Assembly: GCA_913058395.1 (NCBI GenBank)
Contig: CAJXQI010000026.1
Coordinates: 1-54,053, forward strand
Length of the DNA stretch: 54,053 nucleotides
Direction: 5' to 3'
From: an uncultured Colwellia sp.
GTDB lineage: Bacteria > Pseudomonadota > Gammaproteobacteria > Enterobacterales > Alteromonadaceae
The notes below the pieces were generated by a model. That model had not been told where the DNA came from. It made no database searches and saw nothing but the letters and a program-made list of their open reading frames with translations. Every line of letters starts with the position of its first letter. Position 1 is the stretch's first letter. Both the position numbers and the translations under genes were made by a program. This document shows, piece by piece, positions 23,035 to 54,028 of the stretch.

Positions 23035-23951
23035 TGGCTAACATTAATAGTTCTGCACTACCTAAAAGCGTAAAAATTGTTGAAGTAGGACCACGCGATG
23101 GCCTACAAAATGAAAAGCTACAAATTAGTGCTGAAGATAAAATAGCGCTGATCGAACAACTAGCTGATGCCGGTGTTAGTTATATCGAAAGTGGTAGCTT
23201 TGTTTCACCTAAATGGGTGCCGCAAATGGCAACATCTACTGATGTATTTAACGGCATTAACCGTAAAGAAAACATCACTTATGCCGCACTAACACCTAAC
23301 ATGAAAGGGTTTGAAGCCGCCATGGCGGTAAACGCCAGTGAAGTTGCTATATTTGGCGCTGCATCAGAAGCGTTTAGCCAAAAGAACATCAATTGTTCAA
23401 TCGAAGAAAGCTTACAACGATTTGAACCTATCATGGAGGCTGCAAAAGCGGCCAACATTCCCGTACGTGGCTATGTTTCATGTGTTGTCGGTTGCCCTTA
23501 TGACGGCTTTATCGAACCTGAACAAGTTGCCATGGTTGCTGAGAAATTATACAACATGGGCTGCTACGAAATATCACTGGGCGATACCATTGGTGTTGGC
23601 ACCCCCGCTAGCGTAACCAAAATGATACAGGCGGTGAATGCACGTGTACCTATGGCTAAACTTGCTGTTCACTTTCACGATACCTACGGTCAGGCGTTAA
23701 CTAACATTTACACTGCATTACAAGCTGGCGTAGCCGTGGTCGATAGTGCTATTGCAGGCCTTGGTGGATGCCCATATGCTAAGGGTGCTTCAGGAAATGT
23801 CGCAACTGAAGATGTCTTATACATGCTTAATGGTCTAGAAATAGAAACCGGCATTGATTTTGAAAAATTACTAGCGGCTGGTTGGTTTATTAGTGACAAA
23901 TTAGGCAAAACGCCTGTATCGAAAGTATCAACTGCATATCGAGCACAATAA
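23034..23951 (+). CDS. liuE: hydroxymethylglutaryl-CoA lyase
   Basis: This 305-residue TIM-barrel lyase splits HMG-CoA to acetyl-CoA and acetoacetate. Active-site segments are [12 protein letters not shown] (catalytic Arg and metal-binding Asp), [10 protein letters not shown] (metal-binding His pair) and [14 protein letters not shown] (catalytic Cys loop). Length and motifs are those of bacterial HMGCL. The start overlaps the liuD stop by one base. It is the last step of the branched part of the leucine pathway; the acetoacetate goes to the CoA-transferase encoded 64 bases downstream. Confidence 0.95.
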
Positions 23952-25652: not shown

Positions 25653-25667
25653 TGAAATTGACAAAGA

Positions 25668-25761
25668 AAAGGCAAGACACGCGAAAACGTGTTACGCAAA
25701 ACCACCGGTCTAAGGGTTAATGCAATAATATTGCATTTTTCTATGACAGCGGAGTTACCGT
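25668..25761 (+). promoter_or_regulatory. cyclic-di-GMP-I (GEMM) riboswitch
   Basis: The sequence follows the GEMM-I consensus closely: the GGCAA segment, a hairpin with a GAAA-type tetraloop (CACGCGAAAACGTG), the TACGCAAA core, ACCACCGGTCTAAG (CCGG/CTAA tetraloop-receptor side), a variable stem (TGCAATAATATTGCA), then GACAGCGGAGTTACCG. These are the conserved core and the 3' closing strand of the c-di-GMP-I aptamer. A GTGG plus T-run at 25779-25788 could be the expression platform; GTGGTTTT there is complementary to AAAACCAC at 25698-25705 inside the aptamer. It controls the small exported protein 66 bases downstream. On/off polarity cannot be read. Confidence 0.88.
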
Positions 25762-25827
25762 GTTATTAGGTACATCCTGTGGTTTTTTCTTTTACTAACT
25801 CTATTTGCATTATAAAAGGTTATTAAA

Positions 25828-45647: not shown

Positions 45648-46151
45648 CTAAACAGTTAACGTGTTTTCATTGGCGAGCCGTTCTTCAGGAGGCCTGCTAA
45701 CTTGATAAAGCTCATTTTGGTCAAGTAATGACAAGCTATTAAGTAAAATAATTAACTTATCTTCCACCGACGCTAAGCCTTCAAGAAAGCAGCTATCAAT
45801 TTGCTGGCCAAACGCTGGTGGTTTTCGAATTGAGTTAAGTTCAAACTTGTACACTTCTGAGACAGCATCAACAACGATACCAACGACCATTGGATTTTTG
45901 CTGTCTACGCTACGCAGAATAATGGTCACTGTTTGTGCGTTATAATCCAACGGAGCTAAGCCAAAGCGCTGGCGAAGATCTATGATTGGAATAATGACAC
46001 CACGTAAATTAATCACGCCTTTGATATATGCAGGCTTATTAGGTAGTTCTGTGACAGCACTCCACACTCGTAGCTCTTGCACAGATAAAATATCTACACC
46101 AAATTCTTCACCATTGAGGATAAATGTAAGATATTCTTTTTCTTGCGCCAT
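45648..46151 (-). CDS. cheW: chemotaxis coupling protein CheW (second copy)
   Basis: This 167-residue protein is a single CheW domain: LTFILNGEEFGVDILSVQEL at the start, LPNKPAYIKGVINLRGVIIPIIDLR (split: LPNKPAYIKGVINLRG, VIIPIIDLR) in the middle. It couples CheA to the receptor. It follows another cheW by 11 bases. AAAGGA lies ahead of its ATG. The two CheW copies are only moderately similar, so they may have different receptor or array positions. Confidence 0.93.
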   Translation of the reverse strand: MAQEKEYLTFILNGEEFGVDILSVQELRVWSAVTELPNKPAYIKGVINLRGVIIPIIDLRQRFGLAPLDYNAQTVTIILRSVDSKNPMVVGIVVDAVSEVYKFELNSIRKPPAFGQQIDSCFLEGLASVEDKLIILLNSLSLLDQNELYQVSRPPEERLANENTLTV

Positions 46152-46162
46152 TTTAATATCCT

Positions 46163-46690
46163 TTAATAGTTATCTGACTGTTTTTCAATGGTTTGTAGTG
46201 CAGTAACATCAAGCAGTGTTACCACGTTTTCCGCAACATTAACGATACCTTCGATATAATGCTGTGCCAAACTGCCACCAAATGCTGGTGCTGGTTTAAT
46301 ATCGTTTTCTTGTGCATTTAACACATCCGAAACCGCGTCAACCACAAAACCCATAGTACGAGATTTAGTTAAGTGTTGGGCTGTCAATACCACCACCACG
46401 GTTGTTTTGTCATATTTCGCTTCACCAATGCCAAACTTAAGCCGTAAATCAATTATTGGTACGATAACGCCACGCATATTAATCACACCTTTGACAAACA
46501 TGGGGGCATTAGGAATATGCGTAGGTTGTTCCCAGCTTCTAATTTCTTCAACAGCTAAAATATTGACCGCATATTGCTCTAAACCTAATGAGAAAGTTAA
46601 GTACTGCTCGCCGCTTGAAATAAAGTCTACCCCTTCAAGTGCGTACTCCCCTTCAACCGGTATTTCATTGGCTAACGTTTGGATATCCAT
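46163..46690 (-). CDS. cheW: chemotaxis coupling protein CheW (first copy)
   Basis: This 175-residue CheW domain has LTFSLGLEQYAVNILAVEEI, IPNAPMFVKGVINMRG and VIVPIIDLRLKFG in family order, with a roughly 25-residue N-terminal extension. Its ATG overlaps the cheA stop by one base (TAATG), so it is translationally coupled to cheA. Confidence 0.93.
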   Translation of the reverse strand: MDIQTLANEIPVEGEYALEGVDFISSGEQYLTFSLGLEQYAVNILAVEEIRSWEQPTHIPNAPMFVKGVINMRGVIVPIIDLRLKFGIGEAKYDKTTVVVVLTAQHLTKSRTMGFVVDAVSDVLNAQENDIKPAPAFGGSLAQHYIEGIVNVAENVVTLLDVTALQTIEKQSDNY

Positions 46691-48780
46691 TAGTGAATGA
46701 CCTCTTCTGCGACGATATTATTCTGCTGCTGTTTTTTAGCTAATTTCAACGCCATATTTATCATGCTAGGAACGTCTAATATCATCGCCACAGAGCCATC
46801 ACCTAGAATTGTCGCACCAGAAACACCTTCAACTTGCTGGTAGTTTTCATTTAAACTTTTCACAACAACTTGTTGCTGGGCTAATAAGTCGTCCACCATT
46901 AAGCCCACTTTTTGTCCATCGGCTTCAACGACAACAAGTAAGGAGTTTTTAATTGCTTTATTTTGTGCGGGGATATTAAACAATTTGTAGATCGGAATAA
47001 CAGGTACATTGTCTTCTCGCAGCCGATATAACACCATGTCACCAGACGTACGATTAATCAGTGCTTCCTGAGTTTGCAATGATTCAACAATGGTAATTAG
47101 CGGTATGATATAAACTTCTCTGCCTACTTTAACTAATTGACCATCAAGAATTGCTAAGGTGAGCGGTAAAAACACTTTAAATGTACTGCCTACGCCTAAC
47201 GTTGACTCTATTTGTATTCGACCACCTAATGACTGAATGTTACGTTTAACAACATCCATACCGACACCACGACCTGAGATATCACTGAGTGTTTTAGCGG
47301 TAGAAAACCCTGGTTCAAAAAGGAGATCATATACCTGACTCTCAGACAATGAAGTTGATTCATCAACCAAGCCATTCTCTATTGCTTTAGCTAAAATAAC
47401 ATTACTATCAATACCGCCACCATCATCCTTAATTTCGATGACGATACTGCCCCCTTGATGGTAGGCATCTAAGGAAACAGTCCCTTTTTCAGGCTTGCCA
47501 TTAGTAATTCTTACATCAGTTGCTTCAATGCCATGATCAACAGCATTGCGCACTAAATGCACTAGCGGATCACTAATTTGCTCCATTACCGATTTATCAA
47601 GCTCTGTTTGCTCACCACTGATCAATAACTCAATTTCTTTGCCCATTTTCTTTGATAAATCGTGTATCAAGCGCGGAAAACGATTAAAAGCAAAACTAAT
47701 AGGTAACATGCGAATGCGCATTACACTTTCTTGAAGTTCTTTGGTGTTTTGTAAAAGCTGCTCTAAACCTGAATTTAACCTTGCCACTTTAGACAATTCA
47801 AAATCGTTGCCCAATTCAGACAGCATAGACTGAGTGATGACTAGCTCTCCAACTAAGTTAATCAAACTGTCTACTTTATCAACACCAACACGAATAGAGC
47901 CAGATTCAGCCTTAGGCTTTTGCAAACTACTGTCATTAGTAACATTTGGTTTTACTTTAGTTTTAGCTTCTATAGTTGGTTTTTCTGTTATTAATTCATC
48001 TGCTTCATTTGCTATATCAAGATTAATTTCTGCTGGTTTTTTATCGATTGACTCTTCATTACTAATAACCAACTGGCAATCATCTTCAACCCACTCAAAT
48101 ATTTCAGCTATATCTTCTTTTTTCGCTGCCGTAATAAGAGTGATCTGCCATGAAATATAAAGTTCAGTTGCATCCAAATCGACTAGGCTAGGTATCGAAT
48201 TGCAGTTAGCGGTCACGGAAACCTTACCAAGCTCAGCTAAAGCATTTAAGAGTAGAAGTGGATCATTACCTGTTTGTACTAAATGATGCTCAGGAATAAA
48301 GCTGATAGACCAATGCGTTAAGTTATCGTCTGCGATTGCATTCGAGGTGTTTTCATTGTCTTTAGTCGTATCTTCAACAATATTTTCATCTATTGAATTA
48401 TTATTTAGCGTTGCTGTTAGTAATTGTGATGTCACGATAACTTTACTGTCGTCATAACTACAATCATCTCTTATCGCTTCAATAAGTAGTCGCATACAAT
48501 CAACAGAATCAAGCAGTATTTCGATATCTTTATGGGCAATATTTCTTCGGCCGTCGCGCATTTCATCGAGTAAAGTTTCAACTAAATGCGTAAATTCAGT
48601 AACATGATTAAAACCAAAAGTACCGGCGCCGCCTTTTATTGAATGGGCAGCACGAAAAATACTATTAATGGTTTCCTCATCTCCTTGCTCCAAATTTAGT
48701 AAACTCGCTTCCATGAGTTCAATGCCCTCAAAGCACTCCTCTAAAAATGTTGGGATGAACTGCGATAGGTCAATGCTCAT
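46690..48780 (-). CDS. cheA: chemotaxis histidine kinase CheA
   Basis: This 696-residue kinase has the P1 Hpt domain with phospho-His46 in IFRAAHSIKGGAGTFG, a long, low-complexity linker with acidic segments (P2 region, about 135-280), P3 dimerisation (SIRVGVDKVDSLINLVGELV is the start, about 295), the P4 ATPase with N box LVRNAVDHG, G1 KDDGGGID and G2 GRGVGMDVV, and a P5 CheW-like domain to the end. It phosphorylates CheY, CheB and perhaps the linked REC-GGDEF protein. It follows cheY by 5 bases. The length is normal. Confidence 0.95.
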   Translation of the reverse strand: MSIDLSQFIPTFLEECFEGIELMEASLLNLEQGDEETINSIFRAAHSIKGGAGTFGFNHVTEFTHLVETLLDEMRDGRRNIAHKDIEILLDSVDCMRLLIEAIRDDCSYDDSKVIVTSQLLTATLNNNSIDENIVEDTTKDNENTSNAIADDNLTHWSISFIPEHHLVQTGNDPLLLLNALAELGKVSVTANCNSIPSLVDLDATELYISWQITLITAAKKEDIAEIFEWVEDDCQLVISNEESIDKKPAEINLDIANEADELITEKPTIEAKTKVKPNVTNDSSLQKPKAESGSIRVGVDKVDSLINLVGELVITQSMLSELGNDFELSKVARLNSGLEQLLQNTKELQESVMRIRMLPISFAFNRFPRLIHDLSKKMGKEIELLISGEQTELDKSVMEQISDPLVHLVRNAVDHGIEATDVRITNGKPEKGTVSLDAYHQGGSIVIEIKDDGGGIDSNVILAKAIENGLVDESTSLSESQVYDLLFEPGFSTAKTLSDISGRGVGMDVVKRNIQSLGGRIQIESTLGVGSTFKVFLPLTLAILDGQLVKVGREVYIIPLITIVESLQTQEALINRTSGDMVLYRLREDNVPVIPIYKLFNIPAQNKAIKNSLLVVVEADGQKVGLMVDDLLAQQQVVVKSLNENYQQVEGVSGATILGDGSVAMILDVPSMINMALKLAKKQQQNNIVAEEVIH

Positions 48781-48785
48781 TTTAG

Positions 48786-49148
48786 TTACCTCACAACACG
48801 TTTAATTGTTGCTAGTAATTTATCTGGATTAAAAGGCTTCACTAGCCATCCAGTTGCTCCTGCAGCTTTTCCTCGTTGCTTCATATCCGTGGAACTTTCA
48901 GTAGTAAGCATTAGAATAGGTGTATATTGAAAGCTAGCCAGCTTTCGCAGCTCTTGACATAAAGTTATACCGTCCATATTGGGCATATTAACGTCAGTAA
49001 TAACTAAGTCGAATGTACCTGTTTGAGCTTTTGATAATCCGTCTTGGCCATCTTGTGCCTCGACCGTTTGATAGCCTGAGCTTTTTAACGTGAAACTAAC
49101 CATATCGCGAATGGAGTTAGAGTCATCTACAACTAAAATTTTCGACAT
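48786..49148 (-). CDS. cheY: chemotaxis response regulator CheY
   Basis: This 120-residue stand-alone receiver has the acidic pair in VVDDSNS, phospho-Asp52 in LVITDVNMPNMDG, Thr in MLTTES and Lys in WLVKPFNPDKL. It is phosphorylated by CheA and may act on the flagellar motor or other output. It lies between the STAS gene (35 bases) and cheA (5 bases). No cheZ is present in this locus. Confidence 0.93.
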   Translation of the reverse strand: MSKILVVDDSNSIRDMVSFTLKSSGYQTVEAQDGQDGLSKAQTGTFDLVITDVNMPNMDGITLCQELRKLASFQYTPILMLTTESSTDMKQRGKAAGATGWLVKPFNPDKLLATIKRVVR

Positions 49149-49183
49149 TTCAATTCCTTTACAAATGCTAAAAACTACAAAAC

Positions 49184-49459
49184 CTAAACAGTCATATATT
49201 GCTGTAAAATTAATTCTTCAAAACCTAATTGCTCAAAACTGTGTTTGATAACTTTCGATGTTGATTGCCAAATAAGTTGCTTATTTTGTGCTGCAATATA
49301 AGTAACAACAGCAAGTATCAGCTGTAAACCAAGGGTATCAATACGCTCAACAGCGCTGTCGTCAAACTCGACCACATCGCTATTATTTATTTCATCTAGA
49401 AGAGCCACTCGACAAGCTTCGACTTGTACTATGGTTAACTGGGCAGGAAACTGAAACAT
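49184..49459 (-). CDS. STAS-domain protein at the head of the chemosensory operon
   Basis: This 91-residue protein is a single STAS domain of the MlaB/anti-anti-sigma-like type (FPAQLTIVQVEACRVALLDE; VEFDDSAVERIDTLGLQLIL). The residue where SpoIIAA-type proteins carry a phosphorylatable Ser is Thr in IDTLGLQL. It is the first gene of the minus-strand chemosensory operon, with a candidate promoter upstream. Its role is not known; similar small STAS genes precede cheY-cheA in Shewanella-type clusters. Confidence 0.85.
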   Translation of the reverse strand: MFQFPAQLTIVQVEACRVALLDEINNSDVVEFDDSAVERIDTLGLQLILAVVTYIAAQNKQLIWQSTSKVIKHSFEQLGFEELILQQYMTV

Positions 49460-50744: not shown

Positions 50745-51872
50745 ATGGTAACTTTTCGGAGACTGACATTACTCATTCTTTTTTCACTTCATAGCGTTAG
50801 CGTATTTGCAAAAACAACAACGCTAACCATTTGTGAATGGGAAGGCTATATAATGCCTTGGAAAAATGAATTTCAGGCATATGCGAAAGAAAGAGGCATA
50901 AATGTTGATTTACAGCTGCACCCTGAATACTTATCCTCTCCTGAACAAGTTTTTAACTTAGTCAGAGGAAAATTTTGCGACGTAATAACGCCAACTCATA
51001 ATTATTTTGCCCAACGAAACAATCAATTATTTCGCTCATTGTTACCAATTGATTACACCAAAATCCCTAATTACGTCAACGTATCTCCTGCATTAAAAAA
51101 ATTAAATTATAAAAAATATAAAGGAAACAACTATGCGATTCCTTTGCTAGCTGGCTCAAACGGCTTAGCTTACAATGCTGACAAGGTTCAACAACCCACA
51201 TCATTCGATGTATTATTCGATCCCGTCAATAAATGCAAAATAACCATAACGAAAGAACAAATAGCTGCAAACCTTTATCTCGCATTATTAAAGTCAGGAT
51301 ATGACAAAGAAAATATCTATGATATGGACAAGAGAATTAAATCCAGAGGTCTTAATGATCCAGAAATACAAAGTAATCTTGAATTATTATACCGTAATGT
51401 CTGCACTCAAGATCGCTTTTGGAGTGGCGAGGCTGATTTTAGTAAACCTGAATTGCTTTACGGAACAACTTATTGGTTCGGTGTCGCAACAGCAAAAAGG
51501 AATGGTATAAACTGGAAAATAGCGCACAATGTTAGATCAACCGTTTGGTTAGACACCATTTCATTTGTATCAACGTTAAAGCACTCACCAGACAAATTAA
51601 AAGCTGCGTATATACTGGCTGATTTCATGCTTAGTACGCCTATCCAAGAAAAAATCCATAAAGCATATGGCGTGGTCGTTGTAAATCAAAAAGTACAGCA
51701 AGAATTGACCGATTTATCCTTATTTTTCAAAGATACATGGCTATGGAAGCCTTTAACGACAAGAACACAAGGGATTTACCATATAATGCATAATAAAGCG
51801 TTAAATAGTTTAGAAACAGTACCGCATAAAGATAGATTGTCACCAAAGGAGCTTATTAGTAGCTTGCCATAA
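50745..51872 (+). CDS. orphan periplasmic solute-binding protein, polyamine-binding (PotD-like) type
   Basis: This 375-residue protein begins with a signal peptide ending at SVFAK, then TTLTICEWEGYIMPWKNEF, a start resembling the spermidine/putrescine-binding family. Further family-like segments are YAIPLLAGSNGLAYNADKV and an ordered two-lobe layout. No ABC permease or ATPase gene is adjacent, so it is either a component of a transporter elsewhere or a ligand sensor. No lipobox is seen. It is the last plus-strand gene before the integron cassettes. Confidence 0.75.
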   Translation: MVTFRRLTLLILFSLHSVSVFAKTTTLTICEWEGYIMPWKNEFQAYAKERGINVDLQLHPEYLSSPEQVFNLVRGKFCDVITPTHNYFAQRNNQLFRSLLPIDYTKIPNYVNVSPALKKLNYKKYKGNNYAIPLLAGSNGLAYNADKVQQPTSFDVLFDPVNKCKITITKEQIAANLYLALLKSGYDKENIYDMDKRIKSRGLNDPEIQSNLELLYRNVCTQDRFWSGEADFSKPELLYGTTYWFGVATAKRNGINWKIAHNVRSTVWLDTISFVSTLKHSPDKLKAAYILADFMLSTPIQEKIHKAYGVVVVNQKVQQELTDLSLFFKDTWLWKPLTTRTQGIYHIMHNKALNSLETVPHKDRLSPKELISSLP

Positions 51873-51911
51873 AGTGCATTAGCTCAGACCTGATCTGACA
51901 GTTACCATTTT

Positions 51912-51980
51912 TTAACGGTGTTTTGCCAGCTTAGGTTTGAGCTGCTACAAATAAGGCTTAACGCCATAGTCACTTGTTAT
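51912..51980 (-). repeat. degenerate attC-like site after the last cassette gene
   Basis: Read on the minus strand, ATAACAAGTG opens the site and CACCGTTAA closes it, with an internal imperfect stem (CAGCT...AGCTG). The ends match the R'' and R' core pattern of the intact attC at 52435, but the stem is shorter and has an unpaired segment. It starts 4 bases after the cassette stop codon. It is probably the decayed attC at the end of the array. Confidence 0.5.
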
Positions 51981-51984
51981 GTAC

Positions 51985-52419
51985 CTATTTACTCATGAAT
52001 TTATAGGCTATTGGATATTCTTCTTTAAACAAATCAGAATCCAACTTATTTGCAAGCACCAAGCACAACTTTTCTTTTTCAGACTGACTCTGTTTGTTAA
52101 ACAAAATGATTGTGTTATGTGATACTCTCTTTGCAAGCTCAAATAATTGCTCTCGTTCTTTTGTTGGAATTCTATCCAAGCCACTCATTAGGTTTGTGAC
52201 TACTACGCTATTTCTAGCCATCCACGAGTCAACAGCGTCGGAAACTATAATTTCTGTTTCAGGCACTTTCCCTTGACACATGAACTTTAAAACATCTATT
52301 TCTTTAATGTGCCGATAAACAATTCCGATTGCTTCACCTTCATTTTCCGCATCAAATACTGTGTTTGAATAAGCATAACTTGAAAGAAACAATCCAAATA
52401 ATGTTAAAAATATTCTCAT
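51985..52419 (-). CDS. integron cassette gene: small exported protein of unknown function
   Basis: This 144-residue protein has a signal peptide ending at SYAYS. The mature protein has two cysteines (CQGKVPE and KEKLCLVL) that could form a disulphide bond. Most of it is predicted helical and charged, ending EEYPIAYKFMSK. I do not recognise a family. The ATG at 52419 starts 15 bases after the upstream attC and the gene fills almost the whole cassette, as typical. An AGGTAGAG stretch just upstream serves as ribosome site. No promoter is seen. Confidence 0.75.
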   Translation of the reverse strand: MRIFLTLFGLFLSSYAYSNTVFDAENEGEAIGIVYRHIKEIDVLKFMCQGKVPETEIIVSDAVDSWMARNSVVVTNLMSGLDRIPTKEREQLFELAKRVSHNTIILFNKQSQSEKEKLCLVLANKLDSDLFKEEYPIAYKFMSK

Positions 52420-52434
52420 ACTCTACCTAGGTAC

Positions 52435-52522
52435 ATAACGCCTCGTTAAGCGGAAAATAATGGTTAGCTATAATCGCGAAGCGATGGCCAACTGTTATTT
52501 TTCCGTTTAAACGACTTGTTAT
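52435..52522 (-). repeat. intact attC recombination site of an integron cassette
   Basis: On the minus strand the site begins ATAACAAGTCG and ends CGAGGCGTTAT. The two halves are complementary along about 40 bases with a TTCG apical loop and scattered mismatches, giving the single-stranded folded attC structure. The outer TAACAA and GGCGTTA boxes match the R'' and R' core sites. The stop codon of the upstream cassette gene (52519) lies inside the R'' box, and the next gene begins 15 bases after R'. All are hallmarks of gene cassettes. Confidence 0.85.
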
Positions 52523-53013
52523 ATTTTAAATTGTTGATAAAAGAAAATTCCAATAACTAAAAACCATAAGACTGCATAGGTATTTGGTAGGTACTTATCC
52601 ATCTTTACGCGTGTTTTAGATAATTGCATATCTTTAAATGTATCATCATCATTGAGTTTCCAATCACCTAGAATGTAACCTTTAGGTGAATTAAAATCTT
52701 TTTGGTAACGCTTAAATTCAGTTAAAACGCTTATATCTTGAACCTCGCCAGATTCCACTTTTTCTATTAGACGCTGAGAAAATGAAACATCACGACCCCG
52801 AGATGTACATATAGCCCGCCATAAAGAGTGAAGAAATAAACCTGGAATAGCTAACATTATGGCAAATATCGGATTTCCCAAAGATAAAACAGTTACAGAC
52901 AAAGAAAGTAAAATTGACTCTGATGAAATGAAAATCGAACGGTAGTTTTGGAGTAAGGACTCTTGAGTATCCCATAAAGCCCAAACTGCACTCATCAATG
53001 TATCACCTTTCAT
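52519..53013 (-). CDS. integron cassette gene: small membrane protein of unknown function
   Basis: This 164-residue protein has an N-terminal amphipathic region (SAVWALWDTQESLLQNYRSI), two adjacent hydrophobic helices (about 28-70: SILLSLSVTVLSLGNPIFAI, then MLAIPGLFLHSLW), a charged cytoplasmic stretch (about 75-140) and a C-terminal helix (TYAVLWFLVIGIFFYQQF). No family is recognised. AAGGAG lies nine bases before its ATG. The stop codon lies inside the attC at 52435-52522. The preceding attC is only 20 bases upstream of the start. Confidence 0.78.
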   Translation of the reverse strand: MKGDTLMSAVWALWDTQESLLQNYRSIFISSESILLSLSVTVLSLGNPIFAIMLAIPGLFLHSLWRAICTSRGRDVSFSQRLIEKVESGEVQDISVLTEFKRYQKDFNSPKGYILGDWKLNDDDTFKDMQLSKTRVKMDKYLPNTYAVLWFLVIGIFFYQQFKI

Positions 53014-53032
53014 AATTCAAACTCCTTAAAAT

Positions 53033-53106
53033 ATAACGCCCTGTTAAGGGGCAAATGATGGTTGGCTAAAATGTGAAGCGAAGCGGAACCAGCCAACTGT
53101 TATTTG
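53033..53106 (-). repeat. attC site truncated by an insertion sequence
   Basis: Read on the minus strand the 3' part reads CAAATAACAGTTGGC, a loop with TTCGCTTC, GCCAACCATCATTTG and ends CCTTAACAGGGCGTTAT. It matches the intact attC in arrangement: stem arms AGTTGGCTGG/TAGCCAACCAT and the GGCGTTAT box. The 5' outer arm, expected to read about TAACA...GTTAAGGGG, is missing and IS sequence begins at 53107 instead. Confidence 0.8.
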
Positions 53107-53140
53107 TGATCTTCCCCCGATAAAACGAACACATTTTATT

Positions 53141-54028
53141 TTACGCAGCCAGGGCTTCATATTCTATTGGTGAACAATAGTTTATCCCTGAATGCATCCG
53201 CGAAACATTGTAGTATTTGTTAATGTAACTTCCAAGTGTTCCGCGTAGCTCTTTGTCACTTTTAAATACATTACCGCGAATAACCTCTGTCTTCATTGAA
53301 TGGAAAAATGACTCCATATGCGCATTATCAGTACATTTCCCGGCTCGGCTCAAGCTATGAATGATCCCATGTCGTTTCAATGCTTTCTGGTAAATGTGCC
53401 CACGATATTCTACGCCTCTATCAGTGTGGAGCATTAAGTCACCGGATGGTTTACGTTTCTTAACTGCATTTTGCAATGTACGCTTGGTCACTTCCATCGT
53501 CCTACTTTTATCCAAACTCCAGCTAATAATGCGCCGTGAATATAAATCCATGATGACCGACAAATAACGCCATACGCCTTTAACTTTCAAGTACGTGACA
53601 TCAGCTACCCAGACCTTATCTTTAGCCAATGGGACTTCGCCATTAGGTCGTAAGTTTTTACCTGTTGTTAGGAAGCGTTTATAAAAGGCTGAACGTGTCG
53701 TCACGCGCATCACTCTGGCAACCAAACCAAGCGTTCTATACAGCCGCTCTACACGCTTTTTACCGATGTTATATCCTTGTTTTTGTAAGGACTTAAATAT
53801 ACGAGGGCTACCATAGCGACCTTTATTCTCTGTGAATATTCGCTGGATTTTTTGTTTAAGTTCAACATCCTCTATCGTACGAGCACTAGGTTGACGCTCA
53901 CGCCAATCGTAATAGCCACTTTTAGAAACATCAAAGAACTTCAGTAATCTTGTGACTTTGATGTCGGCTCTGAGTGTTTCGATGAATCGATATCTGCCTG
54001 ATGTTCCTCGGCAAGAAACCGTTGCCAC
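53141..54028 (-). CDS. IS3-family transposase OrfB (DDE domain)
   Basis: This 295-residue transposase part has an N-terminal HTH_21-like segment (FFDVSKSGYYDWRER; RYGSPRIFKSLQKQGY) and the rve integrase core. The DDE residues are in VWVADVTYLKVKG (first Asp), MLHTDRGVEYRG (second Asp) and NAHMESFFHSMKTEV (Glu). The frame opens with GTG at 54028, which is part of the slippery tract, so the protein is produced as an OrfAB fusion by -1 frameshifting. The frame is intact, so the element may be active. Confidence 0.92.
   Translation of the reverse strand: MATVSCRGTSGRYRFIETLRADIKVTRLLKFFDVSKSGYYDWRERQPSARTIEDVELKQKIQRIFTENKGRYGSPRIFKSLQKQGYNIGKKRVERLYRTLGLVARVMRVTTRSAFYKRFLTTGKNLRPNGEVPLAKDKVWVADVTYLKVKGVWRYLSVIMDLYSRRIISWSLDKSRTMEVTKRTLQNAVKKRKPSGDLMLHTDRGVEYRGHIYQKALKRHGIIHSLSRAGKCTDNAHMESFFHSMKTEVIRGNVFKSDKELRGTLGSYINKYYNVSRMHSGINYCSPIEYEALAA

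Follow-up and report, generated by a model that had tools for sequence, protein, structure and literature searches.

Insertion sequences (IS) of the IS1111 type that target attC sites were reportedly described by Tetu and Holmes in 2008 and by Post and Hall in 2009. In the accessible parts of the published texts, IS1111-type elements target the attC of gene cassettes at a fixed place (PMC11187229), group IIC-attC introns insert in attC, that of CALINs included, mostly at TTGT/T (PMC7923331), and the IS3-family elements IS1397 and ISKpn1 target REP palindromes with a specificity set by the transposase (PMC1525189). The available text of PMC11023631 places one IS3 copy of the V. cholerae superintegron inside the coding region of a cassette and another in the array's final cassette; those of PMC12444791 and PMC11089894 mention attC-targeting IS, citing the IS1111 papers, and the latter attributes 23% of the cassette transposases of the plant microbiome to the IS3 family, location not given. 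The available portions of PMC5001619, PMC9345347, PMC1382264 and PMC3826837 contain nothing on attC targeting by IS3, and the searchable full texts, a scope outside which most subscription papers and ISfinder fall, yielded no report of attC targeting by IS3-family elements. Group IIC introns and IS of the IS1111 type were thus already known to target attC, a habit apparently undescribed in the IS3 family.

We analysed a 54,053-nucleotide stretch of DNA from an uncultured Colwellia sp. (hereafter the window), at the right end of which the outermost attC of a cassette array is split by an IS3-family element, very probably a member of a lineage whose chosen target is the attC site (Table 1). The truncation that the first-pass annotation had noted in this attC is due to an IS insertion, and insertions at the same point are seen in many genomes.

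Table 1. Features of the window, by position.
Feature	Position	Strand	Basis and remarks
c-di-GMP-I riboswitch	25661-25762	+	Rfam, 61.1 bits
Chemotaxis-like gene block near the array	45648-49459	minus	By eye; two CheW-like, CheA-like, response regulator, STAS-like protein
Extracellular solute-binding protein gene beside the array	50745-51872	+	
Possible collapsed terminal attC	51959-51980	minus	ATAACAAG (R''-like), 7 nt, GGCGTTA; by eye
Cassette gene, 144 aa	51985-52419	minus	ORF; N-terminus signal-peptide-like by eye
Intact attC	52434-52522	minus (folded bottom strand = +)	Held-out model, 75.7 bits, E 1.7e-16
Cassette gene, 164 aa, perhaps membrane protein	52519-53013	minus	ORF; sub-threshold Pfam 8xMP
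attC remainder (central stem, L', R'; R''-L'' arm cut off by IS)	53032-53106	minus	Model match
IS3-family insertion sequence, cut by contig end	53107-54053	minus	Inverted-repeat end TGATCTTCCCCCGATAAAACGAACAC at 53107
IS transposase OrfB, 295 aa, DD(35)E	53141-54028	minus	Frame open to contig end

The attC sites were scored with a covariance model built from 36 complete sites on other contigs of the same genome, gathered as relatives of the repeat at 53026-53108, with the window sites held out. The 36-site alignment has the R''/R' core boxes and the conserved pairing of an imperfect palindrome, with two-sided changes in 17 of 28 pairs. Besides the intact site, the model matches 53032-53123 (57.7 bits, E 6e-12); within this match attC extends over 53032-53106 only, and the rest is IS; a third, weak match in the window is the opposite strand of the intact site. 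The + strand, which is the bottom strand of these attC sites, folds better at 52430-52526 than all 200 shuffles (z -3.8), and at 53026-53108 only 4 of 200 shuffles fold equally well (z -2.6). At 51905-51985 the model was silent up to E 10 and the fold resembles shuffles (z 0.3 and -0.9). Thus, of the three attC-like repeats that had been proposed to flank the genes, both model and folding uphold those labelled intact (52435-52522) and truncated (53033-53106), labels included, and neither recovers the one at 51912-51980. By eye, the R''-like sequence sits directly past the last gene with GGCGTTA 7 nt beyond, and the pair is perhaps a collapsed attC. An Rfam scan of the window gave no attC match.

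The two minus-strand genes are arranged as integron gene cassettes, as the first-pass annotation had read them from the ORFs and as the attC-model matches bear out. Their start codons lie 18 nt (52519-53013) and 14 nt (51985-52419) past the R' ends of those matches, which agrees to within about one base with the 15-20 bases claimed, and the stop codon at 52519 does fall within the R'' box of attC 52434-52522. The longer gene is followed at once by an attC in the same orientation; after 51985-52419 there is no recognizable intact attC. The 164-aa protein reaches Pfam 8xMP only below the cut-off (E 0.0052; 17.1 bits against 30), has no PADLOC or NCBIfam match, and lacks relatives at E 1e-6 among 195 other family genomes and in the genome_contigs set. 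For the 144-aa protein, Pfam, PADLOC and NCBIfam gave no match up to E 1, and viral_contigs held no relatives. Orphan cassette genes are usual. The anti-phage or toxin-type cargo that had been suggested finds no defence signature here, and we rejected defence cargo since neither protein was matched in PADLOC. The neighbouring solute-binding protein gene had no relatives at E 1e-40 in 16 congeners.

In the outermost attC, the IS stands where the R''-L'' side would be expected. The same attC/IS junction is present on contig C33 at 24166, and the C33 site at 23632-23728, 99% identical to that of 53032-53106, retains the arm. OrfB matches the IS3 transposase model NF033516 at 296 bits (cut-off 160) as well as Pfam rve, and 35 residues separate its D and E, as in the DD(35)E motif of IS3; OrfA of this copy lies beyond the contig end. 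Full-length relatives measure about 1269 bp, with 26-nt inverted repeats and, in some copies, the short duplication expected of IS3 elements; the window copy is visible from one end. The transposase was thus matched by DDE families, IS3 and rve-type, and not by IS110, the family of the DEDD transposases of the IS1111-attC group; nor did a Pfam scan of four proteins find the reverse transcriptase of a group IIC-attC intron, the riboswitch being the sole Rfam match in the window. On contig C15 (104216-104261; L019:6217-6262), an attC is interrupted by a 46-bp element in which the two IS ends directly adjoin each other, with CAA on either side; it is a minimal non-autonomous copy.

We collected relatives of the IS by similarity of transposase or IS DNA, disregarding attC, from species genomes (45 loci), congener copies and plasmids. 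L120 and L121 (31-35% identity) were left off the list from the species genomes, and L125, which repeats the L093 insertion, and pBs162S2c, an out-group, were dropped before counting; 19 of the 54 remaining rows lack a resolved orfA-side flank, leaving 35 distinct insertions of the clade. In 31 of these 35, an attC R'' box, TAAYAA, starts 23-26 nt before the IS end (23 nt in 9, 24 in 17, 25 in 4 and 26 in 1). L107 is a 32nd near-fit, with TATCAA at 24 nt and one mismatch. The other three have little or none of the motif: L046 and L051 carry TAAC at 24 and 21 nt, and L103 has none, its attC lying, by eye, on the other side only. The hosts of the attC-inserted relatives are mostly gammaproteobacterial genomes, with one plasmid, and the named relatives of the IS suggest a Colwellia-like host for the window. 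In Colwellia psychrerythraea GAB14E the pattern is kept at every end counted, 7 on the orfA side and 6 on the transposase side.

The transposase side is less uniform. An attC-model match lies directly at that end of the IS in 16 of 41 flanks (L082, L083, L085, L086, L089, L090, L096, L107, L110, L112, L117, L118, C26, C33, C15 and L156), a count outside which L123 falls because its match is a separate upstream attC. Remainders of attC can be made out by eye in L048, L098, L103, L106 and L109 among others, and L046, L091-L093, L095, L111 and L113, among others, have no attC look. A crude R' motif occurs in 23 of the 41 flanks, against 14% by chance. Many transposase-side flanks are thus not recognizable as attC, which counts against the targeting reading. 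Of 23 copies seen from both sides, nine have exactly 3 bp in common, one has 4 bp, two have 2 bp and eleven have none; the last two groups, like the three insertions short of the R'' motif, also count against it. In GGACAA-type sites, the duplicated bases fall in alignment columns 79-81 and adjoin column 82, an unpaired position that separates the L arm from the central stem. When nine empty sites were folded freely, only L098 clearly took the expected attC fold; six folded otherwise, and L048 and C15 offered no R' candidate.

The pattern extends well beyond close relatives. It persists at 60-63% transposase identity in Sessilibacter and Aestuariicella (Cellvibrionaceae) and in Saccharospirillaceae, and at 43-44% in congener G004 (L147, L156) and plasmid pKAZ2 (L159), where the attC sequence differs. 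On the IncC plasmid pKAZ2 (KR827391), the 43% relative splits its attC of different sequence with ACC on either side. In a tree of 36 transposases, all 21 attC-labelled rows, several of them labelled from one flank, fall in one fork of 22 rows with support 99/97, the remaining row being an off-target copy (L124, which is L046). The IS ends of L161-L165 and L168 could not be located convincingly by a simple search, and these rows carry no label in the trees. Relatives at about 40% identity to the window or pKAZ2 transposase, in Bradyrhizobium, Piscirickettsia and Methylomonas plasmids, have ends without attC by eye. The transposase was found at E 1e-80 in 1 of 369 class genomes, the window's own, and at E 1e-95 in 6 of 196 family genomes; the lineage is therefore not common. 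Its relatives were not found in viral_contigs.

A second IS3-family lineage enters attC at another point. In congener G008, two copies (L137 and L149) of a 32%-identical element of 1305 bp lie in the apex loops of two separate attC hairpins, which they interrupt at the same point and with TTC duplications. A 55% relative of this type, L170 on a Candidatus Tenderia plasmid (CP013100), found by protein search alone, occupies the apex of another attC-like hairpin (by eye), in the opposite orientation and with a CGT duplication. All three copies examined of this lineage thus lie in an attC apex, all with 3-bp duplications. L137 is sister to the first clade in two trees (86/96 and 93/97), and the apex lineage is probably the sister of the attC-splitting clade; the kinship is given as probable because L137 stands on a long branch.

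Given the location, orientation, duplication and recurrence observed, we infer from sequence that it is the transposase that chooses attC. The IS inserts directly beyond the R''-L'' arm, at a distance of 23-26 nt counted from where TAACAA begins, with its transposase gene pointing the same way as the cassettes, and duplicates 3 bp. In the mechanism we propose, the transposase would read a feature common to attC, either the R'' box with its arm or the folded bottom-strand hairpin, and would integrate the IS at the junction of arm and central stem. A site split in this way should block recombination there by any integron integrase and so freeze the neighbouring cassettes, and IS copies in arrays could become new points of homologous recombination.

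Whether sequence or structure is read is close to evenly balanced. Recognition of short duplex sequence alone, by TAACAA and a ruler of about 24 nt without any role for folding, has nearly an even chance of being right. The range of distances is narrow, and the TAAC kept at the off-target sites L046 and L051 favours such a sequence reading. However, the insertion tends to track the end of the arm (a 14-nt arm goes with a distance of 23 in 5 of 7 cases, a 15-nt arm with 24 in 12 of 16), and the apex lineage enters loops of unlike sequence in either orientation; distances that partly track arm length, together with the apex preference of the second lineage, favour a structure reading. On this side we advance, tentatively and as something we would not yet wager on, the suggestion that a branch of IS3-family DDE transposases reads the folded single-stranded attC, as the integron integrase does, and that the arm/stem and apex lineages are dedicated integron parasites that silence their sites.

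Returning to the array itself, a CALIN, a cluster of attC sites without integrase, is defined by at least two attC sites within 4 kb and the absence of an integrase. The window has two such sites, one of them split, 598 nt apart. Across the genome, the model (E up to 0.002) finds 61 attC sites, a lower bound as 150 of 2681 first-look candidates were scored, and a count that includes the 36 training sites. They are spread over 19 places, 13 of which have at least two of them inside 4 kb; 19 seems a large number of places for a CALIN. Further attC sites in the genome were therefore not lacking, and we rejected a dispersed palindromic element without integron link, the alternative raised at first pass, because the sites form arrays and fit the attC model.

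The integrase that had been expected to the right was not found, although the array organization stood: beyond the truncated attC the contig runs on for 947 nt and stops within the IS3-family element, and this limits what can be said of an integrase gene beside the array. A search of the whole assembly with the integron integrase model TIGR02249 reached at best 28.9 bits against a cut-off of 265, weak matches of similar kind being present in all 14 control genomes, and a congener IntI as query gave at best E 8.7e-4; on both searches we rejected an integrase remnant. Within the genus, all 16 congeners match TIGR02249 at E up to 1e-30 and 15 of them exceed the cut-off. In congeners G001 and G002, copies of intI have an in-frame stop, the G006 gene is in two pieces, both below the cut-off, and G007 has three full-length matches. 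It is unlikely, in our estimate, that an integrase is present in an assembly gap and a complete integron split among contigs. Arrays do run off the ends of several contigs (C39, C5, C33, C31, C15, C2, C4 and C26), but assembly completeness is 99.96%, an integrase gene is unique sequence that ought to assemble, both searches gave only the weak scores above, and several clusters lie wholly inside contigs (C7, C3, C10 and C1). With no intI detected in the genome, the right end of the window is the terminus of a CALIN and the broken end of a cassette array without detectable integrase, subject to the unlikely case of an intI in a gap. Shared with described CALINs are attC clusters in a genome without detected intI, and we see no essential difference.

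That an ordinary CALIN or decayed chromosomal integron end was truncated by chance when an IS landed in its attC is very improbable. IS are common in cassette arrays, and the available text of PMC11023631 and PMC11089894 gives IS3 in V. cholerae cassettes and the 23% share of the IS3 family cited above. Against this, the same point and orientation recur in the 31 of 35 copies, where the expected chance fraction is 0.0087 (P 7e-60; estimated from the window and 15 attC-bearing loci of its genome, allowing 22-26 nt), and on this recurrence chance insertion was rejected. Controls were drawn from the genus, 30 IS3-family loci fetched of 42 matches: 17 of 30, copies of a few IS types, have no attC at the end read (L133, and 16 read on the transposase side only; L138, L140 and L141 were unread). 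Six of the 30 belong to the clade and two (L137 and L149) are in the attC apex; since the distance from transposase to attC-model match overlooks split sites such as these, the flanks themselves were read. Another two (L146 and L155) begin 8-10 nt past an attC R'. These are copies, in two arrays of G010, of another IS3-family type whose G004 relative, L133, is not so placed. That the IS is merely the cargo of a cassette and the attC downstream of the transposase the cassette's own site, as their shared orientation and 34-nt spacing might imply, can be dismissed almost entirely, because the relatives bear on their orfA side the R''-L'' half of a site of that kind and a 3-bp duplication is present in 9 of the 23 copies seen from both sides, so that the attC is split.

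Selection of attC by an IS3-family lineage, if true, would add a third kind of mobile element specialized on attC, beside IS1111-attC and group IIC-attC introns, and one with a DDE transposase without a known RNA guide. How a DDE transposase reads attC would become testable, and there would be a route by which cassette arrays get frozen and broken and escape attC-finding programs, which give split sites a lower score or none.

The IS1111-attC group (IS110 family; ISKpn4, ISPst6) resembles the window lineage in targeting attC at a fixed place, but employs a DEDD transposase and a guide RNA where the element described here has an IS3-family DDE transposase; it targets one end of attC, whereas the window lineage inserts past the R''-L'' arm and the apex lineage in the apex. 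Group IIC-attC introns also insert in attC, but are retroelements with a ribozyme, are oriented opposite to the cassettes and use another insertion point. The IS3 copies of V. cholerae, like that of the window, are IS3-family elements in a chromosomal cassette array and, according to the accessible part of PMC11023631, able to recombine, yet that part mentions no attC targeting. IS1397, ISKpn1 and ISPsy8 are, like the window IS, IS3-family elements that choose a palindromic repeat; theirs is REP/PU, and here it is attC.
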